From: an uncultured Bacteroidia bacterium
Lineage (GTDB): Bacteria; Bacteroidota; Bacteroidia; NS11-12g; UBA9320
NCBI GenBank assembly: GCA_905478335.1
Contig: CAJQIC010000032.1
Span: forward strand, 1-39,819
Length of the DNA: 39,819 nucleotides
Reading direction: 5' to 3'
In this document: in pieces, positions 1 through 23,942 of the stretch
How positions within the stretch are numbered: position 1 is the first letter of the stretch
How the letters are laid out: each line of letters begins with the position of its first letter
The notes under the pieces: generated by a model
Database searches by the model: none
What the model was told of the DNA's origin: nothing
The model's input: the letters and a program-made list of their open reading frames with translations, nothing else
Position numbers and translations under genes: made by a program

Positions 1-98
1 TCAACTATCAACTATCAACTATCAACTATCAACTATCAATTTCGATGTTAATTGTTAATCGTACATCATTAATTATATATTGTTAATTATTAGTCGCC
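1..98. repeat. degenerate 7-bp tandem repeat array, truncated by window edge
   Basis: Positions 1-35 are five perfect copies of the heptad TCAACTA. From 36 the 7-bp period continues with diverged units such as TCAATTT, AATTGTT, CATCATT, AATTATA, TATTGTT and AATTATT up to about 98. The array ends about 20 bp before the DUF4290 start codon, and its left end lies outside the window. The heptad TCAACTA is a rotation of TATCAAC, the word found in the repeats beside the four-helix-bundle gene at 19617. Confidence 0.8.
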
Positions 99-119: not shown

Positions 120-785
120 ATGGAACATAACATGGCGTATAATACGCAAGCAGAACCGATGGCTATTTCAGAATACGGCCGTTCAGTTCAAGAAATGGTC
201 AAACACATTTGTACAATTCCAGACCGAATAAAACGCAACGAGATGGCTGAAACAATGATTCAAGTGATGATAAACTTGAATCCAGGTGTTAAAGAGCTAG
301 AAGATTACGAACATAAATTGTGGGATCACTTGTTCATCATATCAGATTTTGAACTTGATGTAGATGGTCCGTTTGAAAAGCCGAGTAGAGAATCGGTTGA
401 GCAAAAACCAGAAAGAATTCCGTACAAAGACGAGCTGATTAAGTTCAGATTTTATGGTCGCAACCTCCAAACGATGGTTGAGGAGGCGGCAGAGATGGAA
501 GACCCAGAGATTAAAGAAGCGTTTATCAACTACATCGCTTCGTTTATGGTGAATTCTTCGAGAAATTGGAATGATGAAAACCTGGACAAAGCAACGGTTA
601 TTGAACACTTAAGAACCTTGTCGAAGGGAACGTTAAATGTTACTGAAGACGATCTTCAAATCCACATTGAAGCCAATAGAACACGTTCTAAAAACTTTAA
701 GTCTAATAGCAAGCAGCGCGGACACAAAAACCGTGGAAACAACCAAAACAGAAACAGAAATAGAAATCAAAAACGTAGGTATTAA
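120..785 (+). CDS. DUF4290 family protein
   Basis: A 221-residue soluble protein with no signal peptide or membrane segment. I recognise it as the DUF4290 family, which is confined largely to Bacteroidota and commonly sits directly upstream of murA, as here. Its biochemical role is unknown to me. The body (about 20-180) is acidic and probably helical. The last 35 residues are strongly basic and rich in Arg, Asn and Lys, which suggests a disordered nucleic-acid-binding or ribosome-associated tail; that is inference. The stop codon shares one base with the murA start, so the two genes are probably translationally coupled. The ATG start follows a TAACTTCG box (108-115) that resembles the Bacteroidota -7 element. 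Confidence 0.85.
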   Translation: MEHNMAYNTQAEPMAISEYGRSVQEMVKHICTIPDRIKRNEMAETMIQVMINLNPGVKELEDYEHKLWDHLFIISDFELDVDGPFEKPSRESVEQKPERIPYKDELIKFRFYGRNLQTMVEEAAEMEDPEIKEAFINYIASFMVNSSRNWNDENLDKATVIEHLRTLSKGTLNVTEDDLQIHIEANRTRSKNFKSNSKQRGHKNRGNNQNRNRNRNQKRRY

Positions 786-2092
786 TGGGAACGTTTAAAA
801 TTACTGGAGGCCATAAACTAAAAGGCGAGATAATACCTCAGGGTGCTAAAAATGAAGCACTTCAGGTGCTTTCAGCAGTGTTGTTGACCCCGGAAGAAGT
901 AGTAATCGAAAACATTCCGGCTATTCGAGATGTCAACAAACTCATTGACTTGTTAAAAGGCCTCGGTGTGACGGTAAAACAGCTGAACGATCAAGATTAT
1001 TCCTTTACCTCTGACAACATTGATTTAGATTACCTTGATTCTGTTGATTTTAGAAACAAAGCGAAAAGCATCCGAGGTTCTGTAATGATTATTGGGCCAT
1101 TATTGGCAAGATTTGGCAAAGGCTATATTCCTAGTCCTGGCGGAGATAAAATCGGAAGACGTAGACTGGATACACACTTTATCGGTTTTGAAAACCTCGG
1201 GGCAGATTTTGAGTTCTTACGCGACGAGAATTTTTATAAAATAAGTACCGACAAGCTCGTTGGTGCTGACATGCTTTTACATGAAGCATCGGTTACAGGA
1301 ACGGCTAACATCGTTATGGCCGCCACAATGGCAGAAGGTGTTACCACGATTTACAATGCAGCATGCGAGCCATATGTTCAGCAGTTATGTAAGATGCTAA
1401 ATTCAATGGGGGCCAAAATCTCAGGAGTTGGTTCAAATTTACTGACCATTGAAGGTGTACAATCCCTTGGTGGTTGTACGCATCGGTTACTCCCTGACAT
1501 GATTGAAGTGGGTAGCTTTATTGCTTTAGCAACGATTACCAATTCGGATATTACCATCAAGGATGTTAACATTAATGAGCTTGGTATTATTCCTGAAACG
1601 TTTAAACGTTTGGGGGTTAATTTCGATGTAATTGGTGATGATATTCGCGTGTACGACAATGAAAATTATACGATTGATAGTTTTATTGATGGGTCGATGA
1701 TGACCATTGCTGATGCACCATGGCCAGGGTTGACACCTGACTTGTTGAGTGTAATTCTAGTGATGTGTACCCAAGCGAACGGCAATGTATTAATCCATCA
1801 AAAGATGTTTGAAAGTAGATTGTTTTTTGTTGATAGTTTGATAGACATGGGCGCGCAAATCATATTATGTGACCCGCACCGTGCAACGGTTATGGGGCTG
1901 AACAAAAGACTAAATCTAAAGGGAATTCAGATGACATCGCCTGATATTAGAGCCGGTGTGTCTTTGTTAATTGCTGCGATGAGTGCAGATGGAGTTAGCA
2001 CTATTCACAACATCGAGCAAATAGATAGAGGCTATCAAAACATCGAAGGCAGACTTAATGCCATAGGTGCATCTATAGAGCGTATAGCCTAA
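785..2092 (+). CDS. murA: UDP-N-acetylglucosamine 1-carboxyvinyltransferase MurA
   Basis: A cytoplasmic enzyme that transfers enolpyruvate from PEP to UDP-GlcNAc, the first committed step of peptidoglycan synthesis. At 435 residues it has the normal family length and the EPSP-synthase-like double fold. The substrate-binding Lys22-Asn23 pair is present. In the flexible catalytic loop (PSPGGDKIGRRR, about 117-127) the position that is the fosfomycin-reactive cysteine in E. coli (Cys115) is Asp121. Asp at this site is a known natural variant that keeps activity and prevents alkylation by fosfomycin. The gene overlaps DUF4290 upstream and the thioredoxin gene downstream by one base each, indicating a single operon. 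Confidence 0.97.
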   Translation: MGTFKITGGHKLKGEIIPQGAKNEALQVLSAVLLTPEEVVIENIPAIRDVNKLIDLLKGLGVTVKQLNDQDYSFTSDNIDLDYLDSVDFRNKAKSIRGSVMIIGPLLARFGKGYIPSPGGDKIGRRRLDTHFIGFENLGADFEFLRDENFYKISTDKLVGADMLLHEASVTGTANIVMAATMAEGVTTIYNAACEPYVQQLCKMLNSMGAKISGVGSNLLTIEGVQSLGGCTHRLLPDMIEVGSFIALATITNSDITIKDVNINELGIIPETFKRLGVNFDVIGDDIRVYDNENYTIDSFIDGSMMTIADAPWPGLTPDLLSVILVMCTQANGNVLIHQKMFESRLFFVDSLIDMGAQIILCDPHRATVMGLNKRLNLKGIQMTSPDIRAGVSLLIAAMSADGVSTIHNIEQIDRGYQNIEGRLNAIGASIERIA

Positions 2093-2562
2093 TGCGGTGG
2101 TTACGCTTTTTTATAGGGCTAACCGTATTATCTAGTTTTTCTTTCACCAAAAACGACAATAGCTTCGACTACAATTCGTTTAGGCAGTATTATCAGTTAA
2201 CGGATTCTGTATCGCATGCAGTGCTAGACAACAAACTTGTCTTGATTGAATTTTGGGCGTCATGGTGTCAACCCTGTCGAGTAAAAAATGGTGAACTTAA
2301 TGCACTCTACGCCAAGTATAAAAAGCAAAATTTTGAGATCGTTAGCGTGGCGTTGGATACGGATTCTTTGCGATGGAGAAAGGCAATTCGCAACGATTAC
2401 TTGGCTTGGCCAACGCATGTAAGAGATACGTCTAAATGGAATAGTGCATTTCTGAAAAAAGCGAAGATTTACTATTTGCCTAACAATGTACTGGTTGATC
2501 AACATGGTCAAGTCTTAGGCCGCGAAGTCAGTACGCAGGAACTTGAAAAGTTTTTAAATTAG
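2092..2562 (+). CDS. thioredoxin-like protein, TlpA/DsbE type, exported
   Basis: A 156-residue protein with a short hydrophobic N-terminus (about 4-17) that looks like a signal peptide or anchor, then a thioredoxin fold. The redox motif WCQPC places the cysteines at 59 and 62, and a cis-Pro segment (YYLPNN, about 138) fits a thioredoxin active site. It probably acts outside the cytoplasm as a thiol-disulfide reductase; its partner is unknown. Its ATG overlaps the murA stop by one base. The 3' end overlaps the convergent acetyltransferase gene by four bases through interlocked stop codons. Confidence 0.85.
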   Translation: MRWLRFFIGLTVLSSFSFTKNDNSFDYNSFRQYYQLTDSVSHAVLDNKLVLIEFWASWCQPCRVKNGELNALYAKYKKQNFEIVSVALDTDSLRWRKAIRNDYLAWPTHVRDTSKWNSAFLKKAKIYYLPNNVLVDQHGQVLGREVSTQELEKFLN

Positions 2563-3137
2563 TGCGGTTTGAAGCTTGATTTGAAAACGGTATAGACCGC
2601 CATATCTTGGTATGCCTTGTTAAAATAGATACGATCCTTAAACAGCGCTTCCTGCTCAAATCCCAATTGTTTTAAAAGAAAAATAGCACCCCTGTTGTTT
2701 GGATTCACTTTGGCCTCAATGCTATGCAGTTTAAGTTGGTCAAACCCAAATTGGACTATGGCATTAGTTGCTTCCAATGCCAAGTGTTTGCCCCAATAAT
2801 TGGCTGCCATTTCTCCACCAATTTCAGCACGCAGATTTGGATAATCAATGCTGTTAAAACCACATGTGCCAATTATGGAGTTCTGGTTTCGCAAAACGCC
2901 GGCCCAACCGATGCCAAGTTGGTTGTCAAAAGCTTCAGTGGTCTTTTTTACTAAGGTAACGGCACTGTCTGACGAAAACATAGAGTCACGGGCTATAAAA
3001 CGGTTGACTGCAGCATTTGATCTCATGCCAAATATGGATTCGGCGTCAGTCAATGCAATCGAGCGCAGTGTTAATCGGCGCGTTTCCATGACCGGAAATT
3101 CTTCAAAAACAGACGTATTGACTTTATCAAGTGACAT
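2559..3137 (-). CDS. GNAT family N-acetyltransferase (RimJ/RimL-like)
   Basis: A 192-residue cytoplasmic protein of the GCN5-related acetyltransferase fold, RimJ/RimL subgroup (Acetyltransf_3). The N-terminal METRRLTLR segment (about 17-25) is the usual beta-1 signature of that group. GWAGVLR and IIGTCGF are the central strands, and NRGAIFLLKQLGFEQE near the C-terminus is the typical helix-strand end of the acetyl-CoA site. Substrates in this group include ribosomal protein N-termini and small amines, and the substrate here cannot be told. It is a single gene on the minus strand, convergent with the murA operon and divergent from grpE. Confidence 0.85.
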   Translation of the reverse strand: MSLDKVNTSVFEEFPVMETRRLTLRSIALTDAESIFGMRSNAAVNRFIARDSMFSSDSAVTLVKKTTEAFDNQLGIGWAGVLRNQNSIIGTCGFNSIDYPNLRAEIGGEMAANYWGKHLALEATNAIVQFGFDQLKLHSIEAKVNPNNRGAIFLLKQLGFEQEALFKDRIYFNKAYQDMAVYTVFKSSFKPH

Positions 3138-3245
3138 AGATGGTCAGATGCAGTCAAAGAGACTGACACCGTCGATACAAGATTAATGAATTTCTCTCGT
3201 TTTTGTGTGTCATTATGGCACGGTTCAACGGTTTGTGAGGTACTA

Positions 3246-3278
3246 TGGCACATTACCTGCATTGGCAGACTTATTGCT
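3246..3278 (+). promoter_or_regulatory. two tandem sigma-54-like promoter elements upstream of grpE-dnaJ
   Basis: The first element is TGGCAC, 5 bp, CTGCA (3246-3261), with GG at 3247-3248 and GC at 3259-3260. The second is TTGGCA, 6 bp, TTGCT (3262-3278), with GG at 3264-3265 and GC at 3276-3277. Both have the diagnostic GG-N10-GC spacing, and the second matches the consensus TGGCACGN4TTGCW well. A start site about 12 bp beyond the GC would leave a leader of roughly 20 bases before the grpE ATG. A second TATGGCAC word occurs upstream near 3215. Assignment is by motif only. Confidence 0.5.
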
Positions 3279-3307
3279 AACTGAAACCTGATTAATCATT
3301 TTAAAAA

Positions 3308-3844
3308 ATGGCTAAGAAAAAGAAAGAAGAAAAAGTAAAGGACGAAGCGGTTGTTGATCAAGTTGATAATCAAGTTGAAGAAGGACAATCCGAATCAAAG
3401 GAAACAAGCTGGGAAGAAAAAGCTGCAGAACTTAATGACAAGTATCTCAGACTTTATTCTGAGTTTGACAACTTCCGACGCAGAACGCAAAAGGAACGTG
3501 CTGAACTCATAAAATCTGCAGGAAAAGATATTTTGTCTGACCTGTTAGCCGTTGTAGATGATTTTGATAGAACAATGGACGCCATGGATAAAACGGAGGA
3601 TGTGAAAGCATTTACCGAAGGTGTTAAACTTGTGCAGTCCAAATTCTTGAATGTGTTGACCAAGCAAGGTATGACCCATTTTGAAACCAAGGGCGAAACA
3701 TTTGATCCTGAAGTTCACGAAGCAATCACAAAAATCCCTGCTCCATCAGATGACATGAAGGGCAAGGTAGTTGACGTGATTGAAAAAGGATATATGCTAA
3801 ACGATAAAGTACTCCGATACGCCAAGGTAGTGGTAGGGGAATAA
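3308..3844 (+). CDS. grpE: nucleotide exchange factor GrpE
   Basis: A 178-residue cytoplasmic co-chaperone that releases ADP from DnaK. The first 35 residues are highly charged (Lys/Glu-rich). They are followed by the long dimerising helix with the family motif [16 protein letters not shown] (about 50-65), then the beta-wing domain with the conserved FDPEVHEAI segment (about 135-143) and a C-terminal [13 protein letters not shown] motif. Length and motifs are normal. It is followed by dnaJ after 4 bases, and dnaK is not in the window. The motif-based sigma-54-like elements just upstream suggest regulated expression. Confidence 0.97.
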
Positions 3845-17879: not shown

Positions 17880-19517
17880 ATGAAAATTGTACTCTCTCAG
17901 CTCAACTATACGATTGGCGATCTTAAGGGAAACGTCAGCCAAATGGTTGAACATGTTCATCGTGCGAAACAAGATGGCGCGGATTTAATCGTTTTTTGCG
18001 AACTAAGTATTTGCGGCTACATCCCAAAGGATATGCTCAATTACGAAAGTTTTATCACAAGGTGTTATGAGGCTTTAGATGATTTGAAAAGCCATGCTAA
18101 CGACATTGCAATTGTTGTTGGAATGCCAACTCGGTCGGGCCTGGTTAAAGGTAAAAGCCTGTATAATTCGGCAGTAGTGTTGGCAGATGGAGAGGTGCTG
18201 CAAGAGGTGCATAAAACGCTTCTTCCTACATACGATGTCTTCGACGAATACAGATATTTTGAGCCAAATACCAACTTCAAGTTGGTTGAATATAAAGGAG
18301 TCAAAATAGCCATAACCATATGTGAAGATTTATGGAACTTAAACGAACCATATCTGTACGCAACCACACCAATGGATGAGTTGATAGGTTTACAACCAGA
18401 CATTATGATCAACATCTCTGGTTCTCCATACAGCTATAATCATGTAGAAGAACGAAAGAACAGGATGGTAGCCAACGCCAAGCAGTATAATCTGCCCTTG
18501 GTGTATGTAAATCAGATTGGGGCCCACACCGACATATTGTTCGATGGAGGTTCAATGTTTATCAATCAAACGGGTGAAATAGCCGAAGAGCTACATTATT
18601 TCCAGGAGGATTATAGATGCGTGGAATGGTCAAAGGATGAAATCTATCCAGACAATAGTCACGATTACAAAGACGAGGACATTGAATTAATTCATGATGC
18701 CTTAGTGATGGGAATTAGAGATTACTTTGGGAAAATGGGCTTTAAAAAGGCGCTGCTCGGTTCTTCAGGTGGGATAGATTCGGCGGTAATTCATGCATTA
18801 GCTGCAGAGGCGTTAGGGCCAGAAAATGTGTTGGCTGTTTTATTACCTTCTAAATACTCGTCTACTGGTTCTGTTGTGGACGCAGAAGCATTGGCGCAGA
18901 ATTTAAACAGCCCGTATAAGGTCATTTCTATTGAAGAAATGGTTAACGTAGTTGAAAACACTTTGAGCCCACATTTTGAGGGTTATGACGTGGACGTCAC
19001 CGAGGAAAACATCCAGGCAAGAAGCCGAGGGTTATTGTTAATGGCCTTAAGCAACAAGTACGGAAGTATGGTGCTTAATACCAGTAATAAAAGTGAAACT
19101 GCCGTTGGGTATGCTACGCTTTATGGTGATATGTGTGGAGGCTTATCTGCAATTGGCGACTTGTACAAAATGCAGGTCTACGAGATGGCTAGATACATAA
19201 ACAGAGACAAGGAAATTATTCCAAACGAAATCATAAACAAGGCACCATCGGCTGAATTACGACACGATCAGAAAGACAGCGATTCGTTGCCACCCTATCC
19301 AGTGCTTGATAAAATTTTAATGTTATACATTGAAAAGCAAAAAGGCTGGACGGAGATTGTTGATTTGGGGTACGACGAGGAACTGGTGCGCAAGGTGATT
19401 AAACTTGTTGACCGAAATGAATACAAACGTTTTCAAGCAGCGCCGATTCTGCGCATTTCTAACCTAGCATTTGGCATTGGACGACAGATGCCATTGGTTG
19501 GAAAGTTCTATAATTAG
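17880..19517 (+). CDS. nadE: glutamine-dependent NAD+ synthetase
   Basis: A 545-residue cytoplasmic enzyme that amidates nicotinate adenine dinucleotide in the last step of NAD synthesis. The N-terminal nitrilase-type glutaminase domain (about 1-255) has the complete catalytic triad Glu41, Lys112 and Cys148 (in TICEDLW). The C-terminal synthetase domain (about 265-545) has the ATP-pyrophosphatase loop SGGIDS at 296-301 and the NTSNKSE motif. Length and domain order match the bacterial two-domain form of about 545 residues. It lies downstream of the barrel gene and upstream of a repeat-flanked four-helix-bundle gene. Confidence 0.97.
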   Translation: MKIVLSQLNYTIGDLKGNVSQMVEHVHRAKQDGADLIVFCELSICGYIPKDMLNYESFITRCYEALDDLKSHANDIAIVVGMPTRSGLVKGKSLYNSAVVLADGEVLQEVHKTLLPTYDVFDEYRYFEPNTNFKLVEYKGVKIAITICEDLWNLNEPYLYATTPMDELIGLQPDIMINISGSPYSYNHVEERKNRMVANAKQYNLPLVYVNQIGAHTDILFDGGSMFINQTGEIAEELHYFQEDYRCVEWSKDEIYPDNSHDYKDEDIELIHDALVMGIRDYFGKMGFKKALLGSSGGIDSAVIHALAAEALGPENVLAVLLPSKYSSTGSVVDAEALAQNLNSPYKVISIEEMVNVVENTLSPHFEGYDVDVTEENIQARSRGLLLMALSNKYGSMVLNTSNKSETAVGYATLYGDMCGGLSAIGDLYKMQVYEMARYINRDKEIIPNEIINKAPSAELRHDQKDSDSLPPYPVLDKILMLYIEKQKGWTEIVDLGYDEELVRKVIKLVDRNEYKRFQAAPILRISNLAFGIGRQMPLVGKFYN

Positions 19518-19569
19518 GCTATCGATTTTTAATTGTCCATGTAGGACGTTCGGAGGTTTCGCAAGGCAA

Positions 19570-19604
19570 GTTGATAGTTGAGAGCTGATAATTGTTAGCT
19601 GCTC
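19570..19604. repeat. degenerate heptad array, left flank of four-helix-bundle gene 1
   Basis: Five consecutive 7-bp units, GTTGATA, GTTGAGA, GCTGATA, ATTGTTA and GCTGCTC, end just before the start codon. The first 21 bases (19570-19590) are the reverse complement of 19983-20003 at 18 of 21 positions. Confidence 0.7.
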
Positions 19605-19616
19605 AACGTGTACATT

Positions 19617-19973
19617 ATGAAACCTAAAGGTCCTACAGAAGTGAAAAGTTTAGAGTTCGCTATTGATATAGTTGAGCTTTACAAAAGGCTAAACCGAAAC
19701 AGAGAGTGGGTTTTGTCTAAACAAACTCTGCGCTCGGGTACTGCAATTGGTCCATTGATAAAGGAATCGGAGCACTCTGAAAGCAAAAAAGACTTTGTCC
19801 ATAAACTGTCTATTGCCCTCAAAGAGGCAAATGAGACAAATTATTGGTTAGAACTTTTATGGAAGACAGATTATATTTCAAAACGAGAATTTATAAAACA
19901 TATAGAAAAAGTAGATGAGCTAAAACGTCTACTGATATCTACTATAAAAACAACGAAAGAAAGATATTTGTAG
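19617..19973 (+). CDS. four helix bundle protein (S23/IVP family), copy 1
   Basis: A 118-residue all-helical protein of the four helix bundle family first described from 23S rRNA intervening sequences (TIGR02436/PF05635). Features are SLEFAIDIVELYKRL, the central LRSGTAIGPLIKESEHSESKKDFVHKLSIALKEANETNYWLELL and a C-terminal helix. The function is unknown; members form pentamers with a basic surface and may bind nucleic acid. It is not inside an rRNA gene here, standing alone between nadE and an aldose epimerase. ATG 19617 is used, with GTG 19608 as an alternative. Inverted 7-bp repeat arrays lie on both sides (19570-19604 and 19981-20011), suggesting a repeat-bounded unit. Confidence 0.9.
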   Translation: MKPKGPTEVKSLEFAIDIVELYKRLNRNREWVLSKQTLRSGTAIGPLIKESEHSESKKDFVHKLSIALKEANETNYWLELLWKTDYISKREFIKHIEKVDELKRLLISTIKTTKERYL

Positions 19974-19980
19974 ATAATCT

Positions 19981-20011
19981 GCTATCAATTCTCATCTATC
20001 AACTTTCAACT
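19981..20011. repeat. degenerate heptad array, right flank of four-helix-bundle gene 1
   Basis: The 7-bp units GCTATCA, ATTCTCA, TCTATCA and ACTTTCA, plus a partial unit, follow the stop codon by about 8 bases and end at the epimerase start. They are inverted relative to the left-flank array. Confidence 0.7.
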
Positions 20012-20017
20012 AAAAAA

Positions 20018-20863
20018 ATGATAATCAAAAACGAAATACTCCAAGTAGAAATAGCTACAAAAGGGGCAGAAATACAAAGCATAAAAAGCAGGGAAACGGA
20101 AAAAGAATATTTGTGGCAAGGTGATCCCAAGTTTTGGGCACGTCGTGCTCCTTTGTTGTTTCCGGTGGTGGGGCAGTTGAAAGGCGATTCGTATAAGGTA
20201 GGAGAAGAGGCGTTTACCTTAGGAAAACACGGTTTTGCTAGAGATTCTGAGTTTGATGTTGTGAAATGGAATCCTGCCGAACTGATATTGTCTTTAAAAT
20301 CGTCCCCTGAAACATTCGTATCGTATCCCTTTCATTTTGATTTTAGGGTAGGGTATAGGCTAGAAGGGAATTCACTTATTCAGTCATTTGAAGTAATCAA
20401 TACAGACAACCAAACCATACCCTTTAGTTTTGGTGCTCACCCTGCATTTAACGCCGACCCAATTGAGGCACATCACATCGCATTTGAGCAAAATGAAGTA
20501 CAAGAGTCTGTGATTATTGAAGACGGTATTCGGGTTGAAAAGACCAAGCCAGTTTTTGATAACAACAACATCCAGCTTACAGAAACAATATTTGATGAGG
20601 ATGCTTTAATATTTAGCAAACTAAACAGCACATCGGTGGTGTTAAAAAACAAAGAAGGGGAATCGCTGGTCAAAGTGTCCTTCGATGGATTTCCATTTTT
20701 AGGTATATGGGCGAAACCTAAAGCCAGCTATGTGTGCATCGAGCCTTGGTGCGGCATTGCAGATCATATAGAACACAATGGAAATATTTTCGAAAAAGAG
20801 GGCATTATGGTTTTGGAGCCAGGCAACTCATCTGTTAAAAGTATAAAAATGATTTTTGGCTAA
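20018..20863 (+). CDS. aldose 1-epimerase family protein (LacX-like)
   Basis: A 281-residue cytoplasmic beta-sandwich protein of the aldose-1-epimerase superfamily, LacX-type subgroup. Motifs seen are LWQGDPKFWARRAPLLFPVVGQL (about 32-54), GKHGFARDSEF (about 68-78), FGAHPAFN (about 138-145, the His expected to act as catalytic acid) and VCIEPWCG (about 240-247, the Glu expected to act as base). The family interconverts alpha and beta anomers of hexoses, and the sugar used here is not known. It starts right after the repeat flank of the four-helix-bundle gene. Its TAA stop is the first three bases of a perfect heptad array shared with the convergent fahA gene. Confidence 0.88.
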   Translation: MIIKNEILQVEIATKGAEIQSIKSRETEKEYLWQGDPKFWARRAPLLFPVVGQLKGDSYKVGEEAFTLGKHGFARDSEFDVVKWNPAELILSLKSSPETFVSYPFHFDFRVGYRLEGNSLIQSFEVINTDNQTIPFSFGAHPAFNADPIEAHHIAFEQNEVQESVIIEDGIRVEKTKPVFDNNNIQLTETIFDEDALIFSKLNSTSVVLKNKEGESLVKVSFDGFPFLGIWAKPKASYVCIEPWCGIADHIEHNGNIFEKEGIMVLEPGNSSVKSIKMIFG

Positions 20864-20895
20864 TCGCTAATCGCTAATCGCTAATCGCTAATCGC
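20861..20895. repeat. perfect (TAATCGC)5 tandem array between convergent genes
   Basis: Five exact 7-bp copies fill the gap between the epimerase and fumarylacetoacetase genes. The first TAA is the epimerase stop codon, and the last base (20895) is the first base of CTA, the fumarylacetoacetase stop read on the minus strand. There is no separate terminator. Confidence 0.95.
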
Positions 20896-22124
20896 TACTT
20901 TATAATCTTTCCGATACTCTCACCGAAACCAACACGTTTTTGACCATTGTCGCAAAATGCGCGCATGGTTATGGTATCACCATCTTGAATAAACTTTCGG
21001 GTGTCGCCATTGTTTAACGGAATATCTTTTTTACCACCCCAGCATAATTCTAACATGGAGCCGTAGCTGTTCTCGTCTTTGCCACTAATCGTCCCACTTG
21101 CCATCATGTCTCCAACATTAACGTTACAGCCATTTACGGTATGATGTGCCAACTGTTGGGCCATATTCCAGTACATGTATTTGAAGTTACTATGGCAAAT
21201 AGTAGTGGCTTCAGTACCTTCTGGGCTTAAGTCAACTTCAAGGTTGATGTCGAAGTTCTTGTCGCCTTCATATTTTAAATACGGTAGGACTTCTGGTTCT
21301 TGTTTAACGCTTGCGCATCTGAAAGGCTCAAGGGCTTCCATAGTAACAATCCATGGCGACATGGTTGATGCGAAATTTTTTGCAAGGAAAGGACCTAAAG
21401 GTATATACTCCCACTTCTGAATGTCACGGGCACTCCAATCGTTAAAAACGGTCATTCCAAATATGTGGTCTTCAGCTTCTGCTACTGAGATGGTAGAGCC
21501 AAGCGCTGTTTGACTTCCAACAACGAAGGCCATTTCAAGTTCAAAATCAACACGCTTACTTGGGCCAAATACTGGCTCCGTAGCTTCTGGTGGTAAGGTT
21601 TGCCCATTGGGTCTTTTAATTTCTGTACCACTGACTACAATACTACTTGCTCGACCGTGATAACCCACAGGAATATGTCGCCAGTTAGGGAGCAAAGCGT
21701 TTGCAGGGTCACGGAACATTTTTCCAACATTTGTTGCGTGTTCTATGCTGCTATAAAAATCTGTGTAATCGCCAATATGCAGTGGGAGCTCCATAGTAGC
21801 AGTTAATCTATCAACTAGACATTTCTCTTTATTTGCGTGCAGCGATGACGAAGTGTCTGTCAAAGCGTTTTGAATAAACGAACGCAACGCACTCCAATTA
21901 GATTTGCCAGTAGAAATAAAGGGGTTCAACAAATCATTTTGGAAAACGGCAACGTCAAATGGCAGACCTTCTAAGACACCTAATTCTGATGCGCGACGAA
22001 GATCAATAATGTGGTCGCCAATGGCTATACATGGCGAGGAAACACCATCACGGTTAAAAACACCAAATGGTAAATTGTGAATTGAAAAGTCGAGTAAATC
22101 AGATACGTTTAACCAGTTTTGCAT
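20895..22124 (-). CDS. fahA: fumarylacetoacetase
   Basis: A 409-residue cytoplasmic hydrolase that splits fumarylacetoacetate into fumarate and acetoacetate, the last step of tyrosine catabolism through homogentisate. An N-terminal SH3-like domain (about 1-115) is followed by the catalytic FAH domain. Recognisable segments are DYTDFYSSIEHATNVG (with the catalytic His of the family), LPNWRHIPVGYHGRASS, VDFELEMAFVVG, NDWSARDIQKWEYIPLGPFLAKNF and MASGTISG. Length is normal (about 410-420). No other tyrosine-degradation gene is present in the window. It is divergent from pyrD across 64 bases, and a TAATTTCG box at 22150-22143 on the minus strand could be its -7 element. Confidence 0.97.
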   Translation of the reverse strand: MQNWLNVSDLLDFSIHNLPFGVFNRDGVSSPCIAIGDHIIDLRRASELGVLEGLPFDVAVFQNDLLNPFISTGKSNWSALRSFIQNALTDTSSSLHANKEKCLVDRLTATMELPLHIGDYTDFYSSIEHATNVGKMFRDPANALLPNWRHIPVGYHGRASSIVVSGTEIKRPNGQTLPPEATEPVFGPSKRVDFELEMAFVVGSQTALGSTISVAEAEDHIFGMTVFNDWSARDIQKWEYIPLGPFLAKNFASTMSPWIVTMEALEPFRCASVKQEPEVLPYLKYEGDKNFDINLEVDLSPEGTEATTICHSNFKYMYWNMAQQLAHHTVNGCNVNVGDMMASGTISGKDENSYGSMLELCWGGKKDIPLNNGDTRKFIQDGDTITMRAFCDNGQKRVGFGESIGKIIK

Positions 22125-23238: not shown

Positions 23239-23263
23239 TCGAAATGTAAAATGTAGAATGGCA
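23236..23263. repeat. degenerate heptad array, left flank of four-helix-bundle gene 2
   Basis: The units TAATCGA, AATGTAA, AATGTAG and AATGGCA begin at the pyrD stop codon. The 16 bases 23239-23254 are the exact reverse complement of 23842-23857 beyond the gene. Confidence 0.75.
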
Positions 23264-23458: not shown

Positions 23459-23842
23459 ATGAATATGATGACACGGCAATATGACTTAGAGGAGCGCTTA
23501 ATATCTTTTTCTCTGGACGTAATTGAAGTTTCGAAGACAATTATTACAACGAACGCAGGTTATAATTTGTCGAATCAATTAGTTCGAAGCAGCTCATCGC
23601 CAGCCTTAAATTATGGAGAAGCTCAGGCTGCAGAATCACGTAAAGACTTTATTCATAAACTCAGAATTGTTCTGAAAGAACTACGTGAAACCAAAGTCAA
23701 TCTCACATTGTTGCTGAGGGCTGAACTTGTTAATAACGAATTACTATGTCAAAAGGCAAAAAAGGAATGTATCCAATTGATAGCTATAATCACCACGAGT
23801 ATTTCGACAACTCAAAAAGGATTACAAACCTTCGACATTTAA
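23459..23842 (+). CDS. four helix bundle protein (S23/IVP family), copy 2
   Basis: A 127-residue helical protein of the same S23/IVP family as the copy at 19617, but clearly diverged from it. Shared landmarks are an N-terminal LISFSLDVIEVSKTI helix, LVRSSSSPALNYGEAQAAESRKDFIHKLRIVLKELRET (compare SESKKDFVHKLSIALKEANET in copy 1) and a final basic helix. Function is unknown. The TAA stop lies inside the right heptad array, so the array supplies the last two codons and the stop. It lies between pyrD and a convergent MCE gene. The unit is bounded by a 16-bp perfect inverted repeat (23239-23254 and 23842-23857). Confidence 0.9.
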   Translation: MNMMTRQYDLEERLISFSLDVIEVSKTIITTNAGYNLSNQLVRSSSSPALNYGEAQAAESRKDFIHKLRIVLKELRETKVNLTLLLRAELVNNELLCQKAKKECIQLIAIITTSISTTQKGLQTFDI

Positions 23843-23860
23843 CATTTTACATTTCGAAGG
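23829..23860. repeat. right-flank heptad array and hairpin of four-helix-bundle gene 2
   Basis: The heptads ACATTTA, ACATTTT and ACATTTC (23835-23855) are enclosed by CCTTCG (23829-23834) and CGAAGG (23855-23860), giving an imperfect hairpin around the stop codon. It could end transcription from either side. The 9-mer ACCTTCGAC at 23828-23836 recurs at 23932-23940, next to the MCE gene stop. Confidence 0.65.
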
Positions 23861-23942
23861 TCAGTTGCTGCAATTGAATTCAGCAGGGTGTTGTCAAATT
23901 GGTGAAGTGTATATATGTAAAGAATTTGAGGACCTTCGACTA

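Follow-up and report, generated by a model that had tools for sequence, protein, structure and literature searches.

What is a small gene of the S23/IVP family, bracketed by short and mutually inverted 7-bp repeats, doing between two protein-coding genes of a Bacteroidia genome, and how did it come to be there? The locus lies in the window, by which we mean the whole stretch of 39,819 nucleotides analysed here, which is contig C32 of a 2.78 Mb draft genome (G000). It is best read as a mobile element with the architecture of an rRNA intervening sequence (IVS), located between genes; taken as a whole, our explanation, by which the locus (element 1) is a small mobile element resident at this site, composed of an S23/IVP gene and inverted terminal arrays and proposed to be driven by S23, is probably correct. 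The features of the window that enter the argument are:

1..39, + strand: lone perfect array of heptads (TCAACTA x5.6) at the end of the contig, belonging to the element 1 unit family
17880..19517, + strand: nadE-like gene, left side of the element 1 junction
19570..19599, + strand: element 1, left arm, made of four degenerate 7-bp units, G-rich/C-poor strand inward
19608..19973, + strand: S23/IVP four-helix-bundle gene (PF05635/TIGR02436; 121-aa ORF)
19981..20011, + strand: element 1, right arm (the left arm in reverse complement)
20018..20863, + strand: aldose-epimerase-like gene, right side of the element 1 junction
20859..20897, + strand: lone perfect heptad array, GCTAATC x5.6, with no S23 gene or inverted partner within 1.2 kb
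23239..23260, + strand: element 2, left arm, with units of AAATGTA type
23459..23842, + strand: second S23/IVP gene (PF05635/TIGR02436)
23836..23857, + strand: element 2, right arm; overlaps the second S23 gene around its stop codon

The arms of element 1 consist of the units GTTGATA, GTTGAGA, GCTGATA and ATTGTTA on the left (19570-19597) and GCTATCA, ATTCTCA, TCTATCA and ACTTTCA on the right (19981-20008), and an inverted-repeat search pairs 19568-19590 with 19983-20005, 23 nt of which 20 (87%) are complementary. Local alignment of the left arm with the reverse complement of the right scores 21, above every one of 2000 shuffles of the two flanks (mean 11.0, maximum 20), which confirms the inverted arrays of 7-bp period that the original prediction had placed around the S23 gene. 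The gene, which likely starts at ATG 19617 and not at GTG 19608, encodes a member of the S23/IVP family (PF05635, 90.4 bits against a cut-off of 33.8; TIGR02436, 96.4 bits against 24), whose solved relatives 2gsc and 2rld, the latter matched with an E-value of 4e-32, have five chains each. Matches to this family are the only Pfam/NCBIfam ones in element 1, with none to a transposase. The window contains no rRNA, and element 1 is not inside a 16S or 23S gene; the termini around its S23 ORF are complementary, as in an IVS. In element 2 the arms are 91% complementary, the right one belonging to a palindrome, ACCTTCGA...TCGAAGGT, at 23828-23861. As to the lone arrays, that of GCTAATC units overlaps the epimerase stop codon, and that of TCAACTA units terminates the contig, so that heptad arrays may break assemblies.

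Whether arms of this kind belong to S23 genes or are scattered at large can be judged within the same genome. A PF05635 search finds five S23 genes in G000, and all five have inverted paired arms (scores 18-21), whereas none of 294 control genes, drawn from sampled stretches amounting to 373 kb, reaches the threshold score of 18, at which gapped arms can be missed (control maximum 17; Fisher 5e-11). The repeat units vary by locus (GTTGATA, GTTGGCT, AAATGTA, GAATAGA and the 8-bp GGATTGAT), with both sides of one locus in agreement. The original prediction was to fail if other S23 genes of the genome lacked flanking heptads or if such arrays were equally common beside unrelated genes; there is no armless S23 gene in G000, and paired arms are absent from the controls, although single S23-free arrays do exist. 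The existence of such arrays, and a survey that ranks heptamers first in frequency among repeats of 5-11 nt in most genomes (PMC4679880), are what could be said for heptad arrays being independent slippage repeats near which S23 genes merely land. This account, already disfavoured, is very improbable: the arms are paired, inverted, matched per locus and polarised, they accompany S23 genes and not controls, and empty sites (see below) lack arms and gene together. In 1.13 Mb from seven S23-positive genomes there are 18 S23-free arrays, and in 0.74 Mb from six S23-free genomes there are none; all 18 come from three genomes, which makes a link with S23 presence only suggestive. Elsewhere in the genome of the window, gene-less inverted heptad pairs occur in L103 (13419-13559), L104 (4184-4654) and L096 (4960-5012), and are probably element remains. 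In a relative (locus L089 of G005), an S23 gene has a perfect 29-bp inverted repeat lacking heptad period, AGTGTAAGGGCGAAGGGTAAGTGAACAGG, located 120-91 bp before the ORF and 86-115 bp after it.

The association extends far beyond this genome. A scan of 84,980 species yielded 80 S23 loci from about 20 phyla, among them Cyanobacteria, Bacteroidota, Acidobacteriota, Planctomycetota, Chloroflexota and candidate-phyla bacteria, and also from a Methanophagales archaeon. The threshold is reached at 62 of the 80 loci and by 25 of 480 mismatched pairs; under an alternative start rule the figures are 59 of 80 against 9 of 320 matched intervals (Fisher 1e-42), matched intervals having been used as the control because neighbouring genes, which share the arms, are unsuitable. 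Across 170 loci, self-similarity of the flanks is in excess at lags of 7, 14 and 21, and hardly at any other. At 120 of 122 loci both arms have their G-rich, C-poor strand running inward, a constant polarity that was not expected beforehand. On cyanobacterial plasmids, the heptads on either side of S23 genes are of the STRR type and nearly always inverted. A minority of loci (L026, L032, L035, L180) are exceptions, with direct or weak arms. Three cyanobacteria carry S23 elements within CRISPR-Cas operons, as cas6|S23|cas4 (L035, with direct and not inverted arms, and L040) and as cas10|S23|cmr3 (L038). The spread over many phyla, the fixed arm polarity and the features shared with rRNA IVSs go beyond the original prediction.

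The history of the unit can be followed in relatives of G000: S23 genes are present in 43 of 58 genomes (G000 included), with copies ranging from 0 to 11 even inside one genus. At the nadE junction, the same S23 ortholog occurs in G000, G001 and G004, a gene-less inverted-heptad scar in G002, and no element in G003, G007, G009 and G011. Among about 50 genomes, most have an sdhA|sdhB junction of 1-47 bp; it measures 544-648 bp where it holds an S23 gene (G000, G004, G038, G039), and is occupied by gene-less heptad-armed scars of about 90-110 bp in G044, G015 and G017; since two unlike S23 types with different arms are found there, it probably received two insertions. Orthologs persist at fixed sites across a genus, so that most copies here are old. 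Stationary S23 orthologs evolve under purifying selection (pN 0.06-0.19, pS 0.35-1.0), which implies that the protein matters after insertion, to the element or to the host. Concerted evolution of the two arms was considered and rejected, cross-locus scores being about equal to own scores and the arms of close orthologs simply conserved.

The ends of the insertion are defined by cyanobacterial copies, the case for the window copy resting on junction comparison and architecture. In Trichormus variabilis plasmid C and Scytonema NIES-4073, the S23-bearing sites read AAAAAGTAAT-[element]-GTAATTAAC, with heptad arms at the ends and a 5-bp duplication, GTAAT, while 98%-identical Nostoc and Tolypothrix plasmids are empty and read AAAAAGTAATTAACAAATA; a truncated copy of the element occupies the same site in Nostoc C052. 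Plasmid pNsp_a of Nostoc ATCC 53789 has a 5-bp duplication, TTCTA, relative to two homologous empty regions. Clean 5-bp target duplications are found at these two sites only, both cyanobacterial, several other filled/empty pairs being too diverged or having extra replaced bases. In Picosynechococcus PCC 7003 an S23 gene separates cas10 from cmr3; PCC 7002 lacks it. At three unrelated sites (L041, L043, L047), homology is essentially confined to 1442-1857, that is, to arms and gene, the few remaining short matches being heptad arrays, and it follows that the arms travel with the gene. These filled/empty comparisons show a discrete unit and so bear out the repeat-bounded cassette that was originally proposed. 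Two further observations concern other loci: at an otherwise clean insertion (L048, 1900-1936), about 35 bp of unexplained sequence separate the right arm from the next gene, and on an Aulosira plasmid (L277, ~486-720) there is a gene-less insertion of about 230 bp with inverted heptad arms of TTTTAGA/TTTTGGA type, missing from the close relative L275 and resembling a MITE-like derivative.

What moves the unit is a separate matter. No transposition has been observed, S23 has no recognised catalytic domain and G000 has no RVT_1 gene; these points count against the mobile-element reading, as do the small number of clean duplications, the loci with direct or weak arms, the age of most copies here and the S23-free arrays. 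A possible, if doubtful, alternative makes it a non-autonomous passenger, its arms serving in trans as ends for some unrelated transposase or for the replication and repair enzymes of the host, and S23 being cargo with some other benefit. The lack of a catalytic domain would fit, as would the gene-less heptad-armed insertions (the Aulosira insertion and the scars) and the continuing purifying selection on S23 at fixed sites; but a common partner enzyme is not seen, and the one gene that such arms are seen to enclose, across many phyla, is S23, in loci that were, admittedly, chosen by S23.

A second alternative, which we consider unlikely, places the function in RNA: the arms would form a double-stranded stem, cut by RNase III, that insulates or processes operon transcripts, with S23 as an RNA-binding partner and copies that seldom move. 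It draws on the excision of S23-bearing rRNA IVSs by RNase III at the heptamer stem (PMC4990558), on the predicted fold of the window transcript, in which the arms are paired (z -4.2), and on the orientation of S23, which at 57 of 70 loci agrees with that of both neighbours. The existence of empty sites and of target duplications, however, denotes DNA insertion, and selection for an RNA stem was rejected, G:U-compatible changes between arms being in no excess over A:C ones (190 vs 216, p 0.21); without a G:U bias in arm pairing, the constraint may act at the DNA level.

In the mobile-element reading that we prefer, several parts are observed, partly in cyanobacterial relatives and not in the window copy: the association, the unit with its ends, its insertion at sites that are empty in relatives, the 5-bp duplication in two cases, the decay of the unit, the polarity of its arms and the purifying selection under which the S23 protein evolves. 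An element with terminal arrays of short tandem units, mostly of 7 bp, inserts between genes as a unit, mostly in the direction of its neighbours and with a target duplication of about 5 bp, and later decay leaves gene-less arm pairs. The mechanism we propose would run as follows. The S23 pentamer may bind the arms by their period and polarity, and not by any single sequence, and bridge the two ends, after which host enzymes would copy or move the unit; given variable end sequences and neither a recognised transposase nor RVT_1, such recognition appears, from sequence, to be the simplest idea that fits. Once transcribed, the arms could fold into a stem cut by RNase III, as in rRNA IVSs, which would explain tolerance within operons and rRNA.

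The armed S23 unit, found in some 20 other phyla, suggests a form of jumping DNA that is widespread but has been overlooked, and from which bacterial heptad repeats may derive. It joins three loose ends, namely the role of the S23/IVP family, the origin of rRNA IVSs, and the heptamers of cyanobacteria, Xanthomonas and Bacteroidota, of which one survey states that a role is still to be found and another that there is no evident means of transfer (PMC4692102, PMC4679880). No literature linking S23 genes outside rRNA to heptad arrays was found, subscription papers and bioRxiv lying outside the search, and the link appears unreported in the literature searched. Should S23 itself drive the movement, this would be an unusual kind of mobile DNA, having no recognised nuclease and ends set by period, not sequence. 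Tentatively, and with rather less confidence than in the explanation of the locus itself, one might go further and treat S23 elements as a class of mobile DNA in their own right, spread over many bacterial phyla and some archaea, whose mover would be a pentameric protein without enzymatic activity, reading 7-bp periodicity and polarity instead of a fixed end sequence; rRNA IVSs and many genomic heptad repeats would then be special cases and remains of it. We would not yet wager on this.

Among known systems, the 23S rRNA IVSs of Coxiella, Leptospira and Azospirillum are like the window copies in having an S23 gene between inverted termini, and differ in that the window copies sit between protein genes, where the stem is predicted. 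In Coxiella, GACAGAT heptamers lie upstream of S23 and the RNase III site is at the first repeat; Warrier et al. also mention an earlier suggestion of a function for the ORF in mobility (PMC4990558). Our own set contains one such case, and no further rRNA-located S23 gene among the retrieved loci: in Azospirillum lipoferum plasmid AZO_p2 (L045), a 23S rRNA gene (283-3330) harbours an S23 IVS, absent from the listed annotation, with 7-bp periodic arms TCAGAGGACGGATGACAGAGGACGGAGGACAGAAAG. Published heptamer repeats, such as GGGAATC and GGGGA(C/T)T of Xanthomonas and Nostoc (PMC4692102) and TAACTGA of Beggiatoaceae, Cyanobacteria and Bacteroidetes (PMC4679880), share with S23 arms the 7-bp period and intergenic location, and the frequent convergent inverted pairs of GGGAATC in Xanthomonas, which number 70-75 (PMC4692102), have the layout of S23 arms, but they were described without an S23 gene and without an identified mobile carrier. 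REP/RAYT systems (REPtrons) likewise combine a gene between inverted short repeats with gene-less copies; RAYT, however, is a Y1 transposase and REPs carry a conserved palindrome, whereas the units of S23 elements differ between families and we know of no catalysis by S23. The accessory protein Avd of diversity-generating retroelements (DGRs) has a pentameric four-helix-bundle fold related to that of S23, and G000 differs from a DGR in having no reverse transcriptase (RVT_1), so that this candidate for a partner in trans was rejected. Finally, the cyanobacterial insertion unit is bounded by inverted repeats, as in a DNA transposon, from which S23 elements differ in that their terminal units vary among loci and are common only to close relatives.
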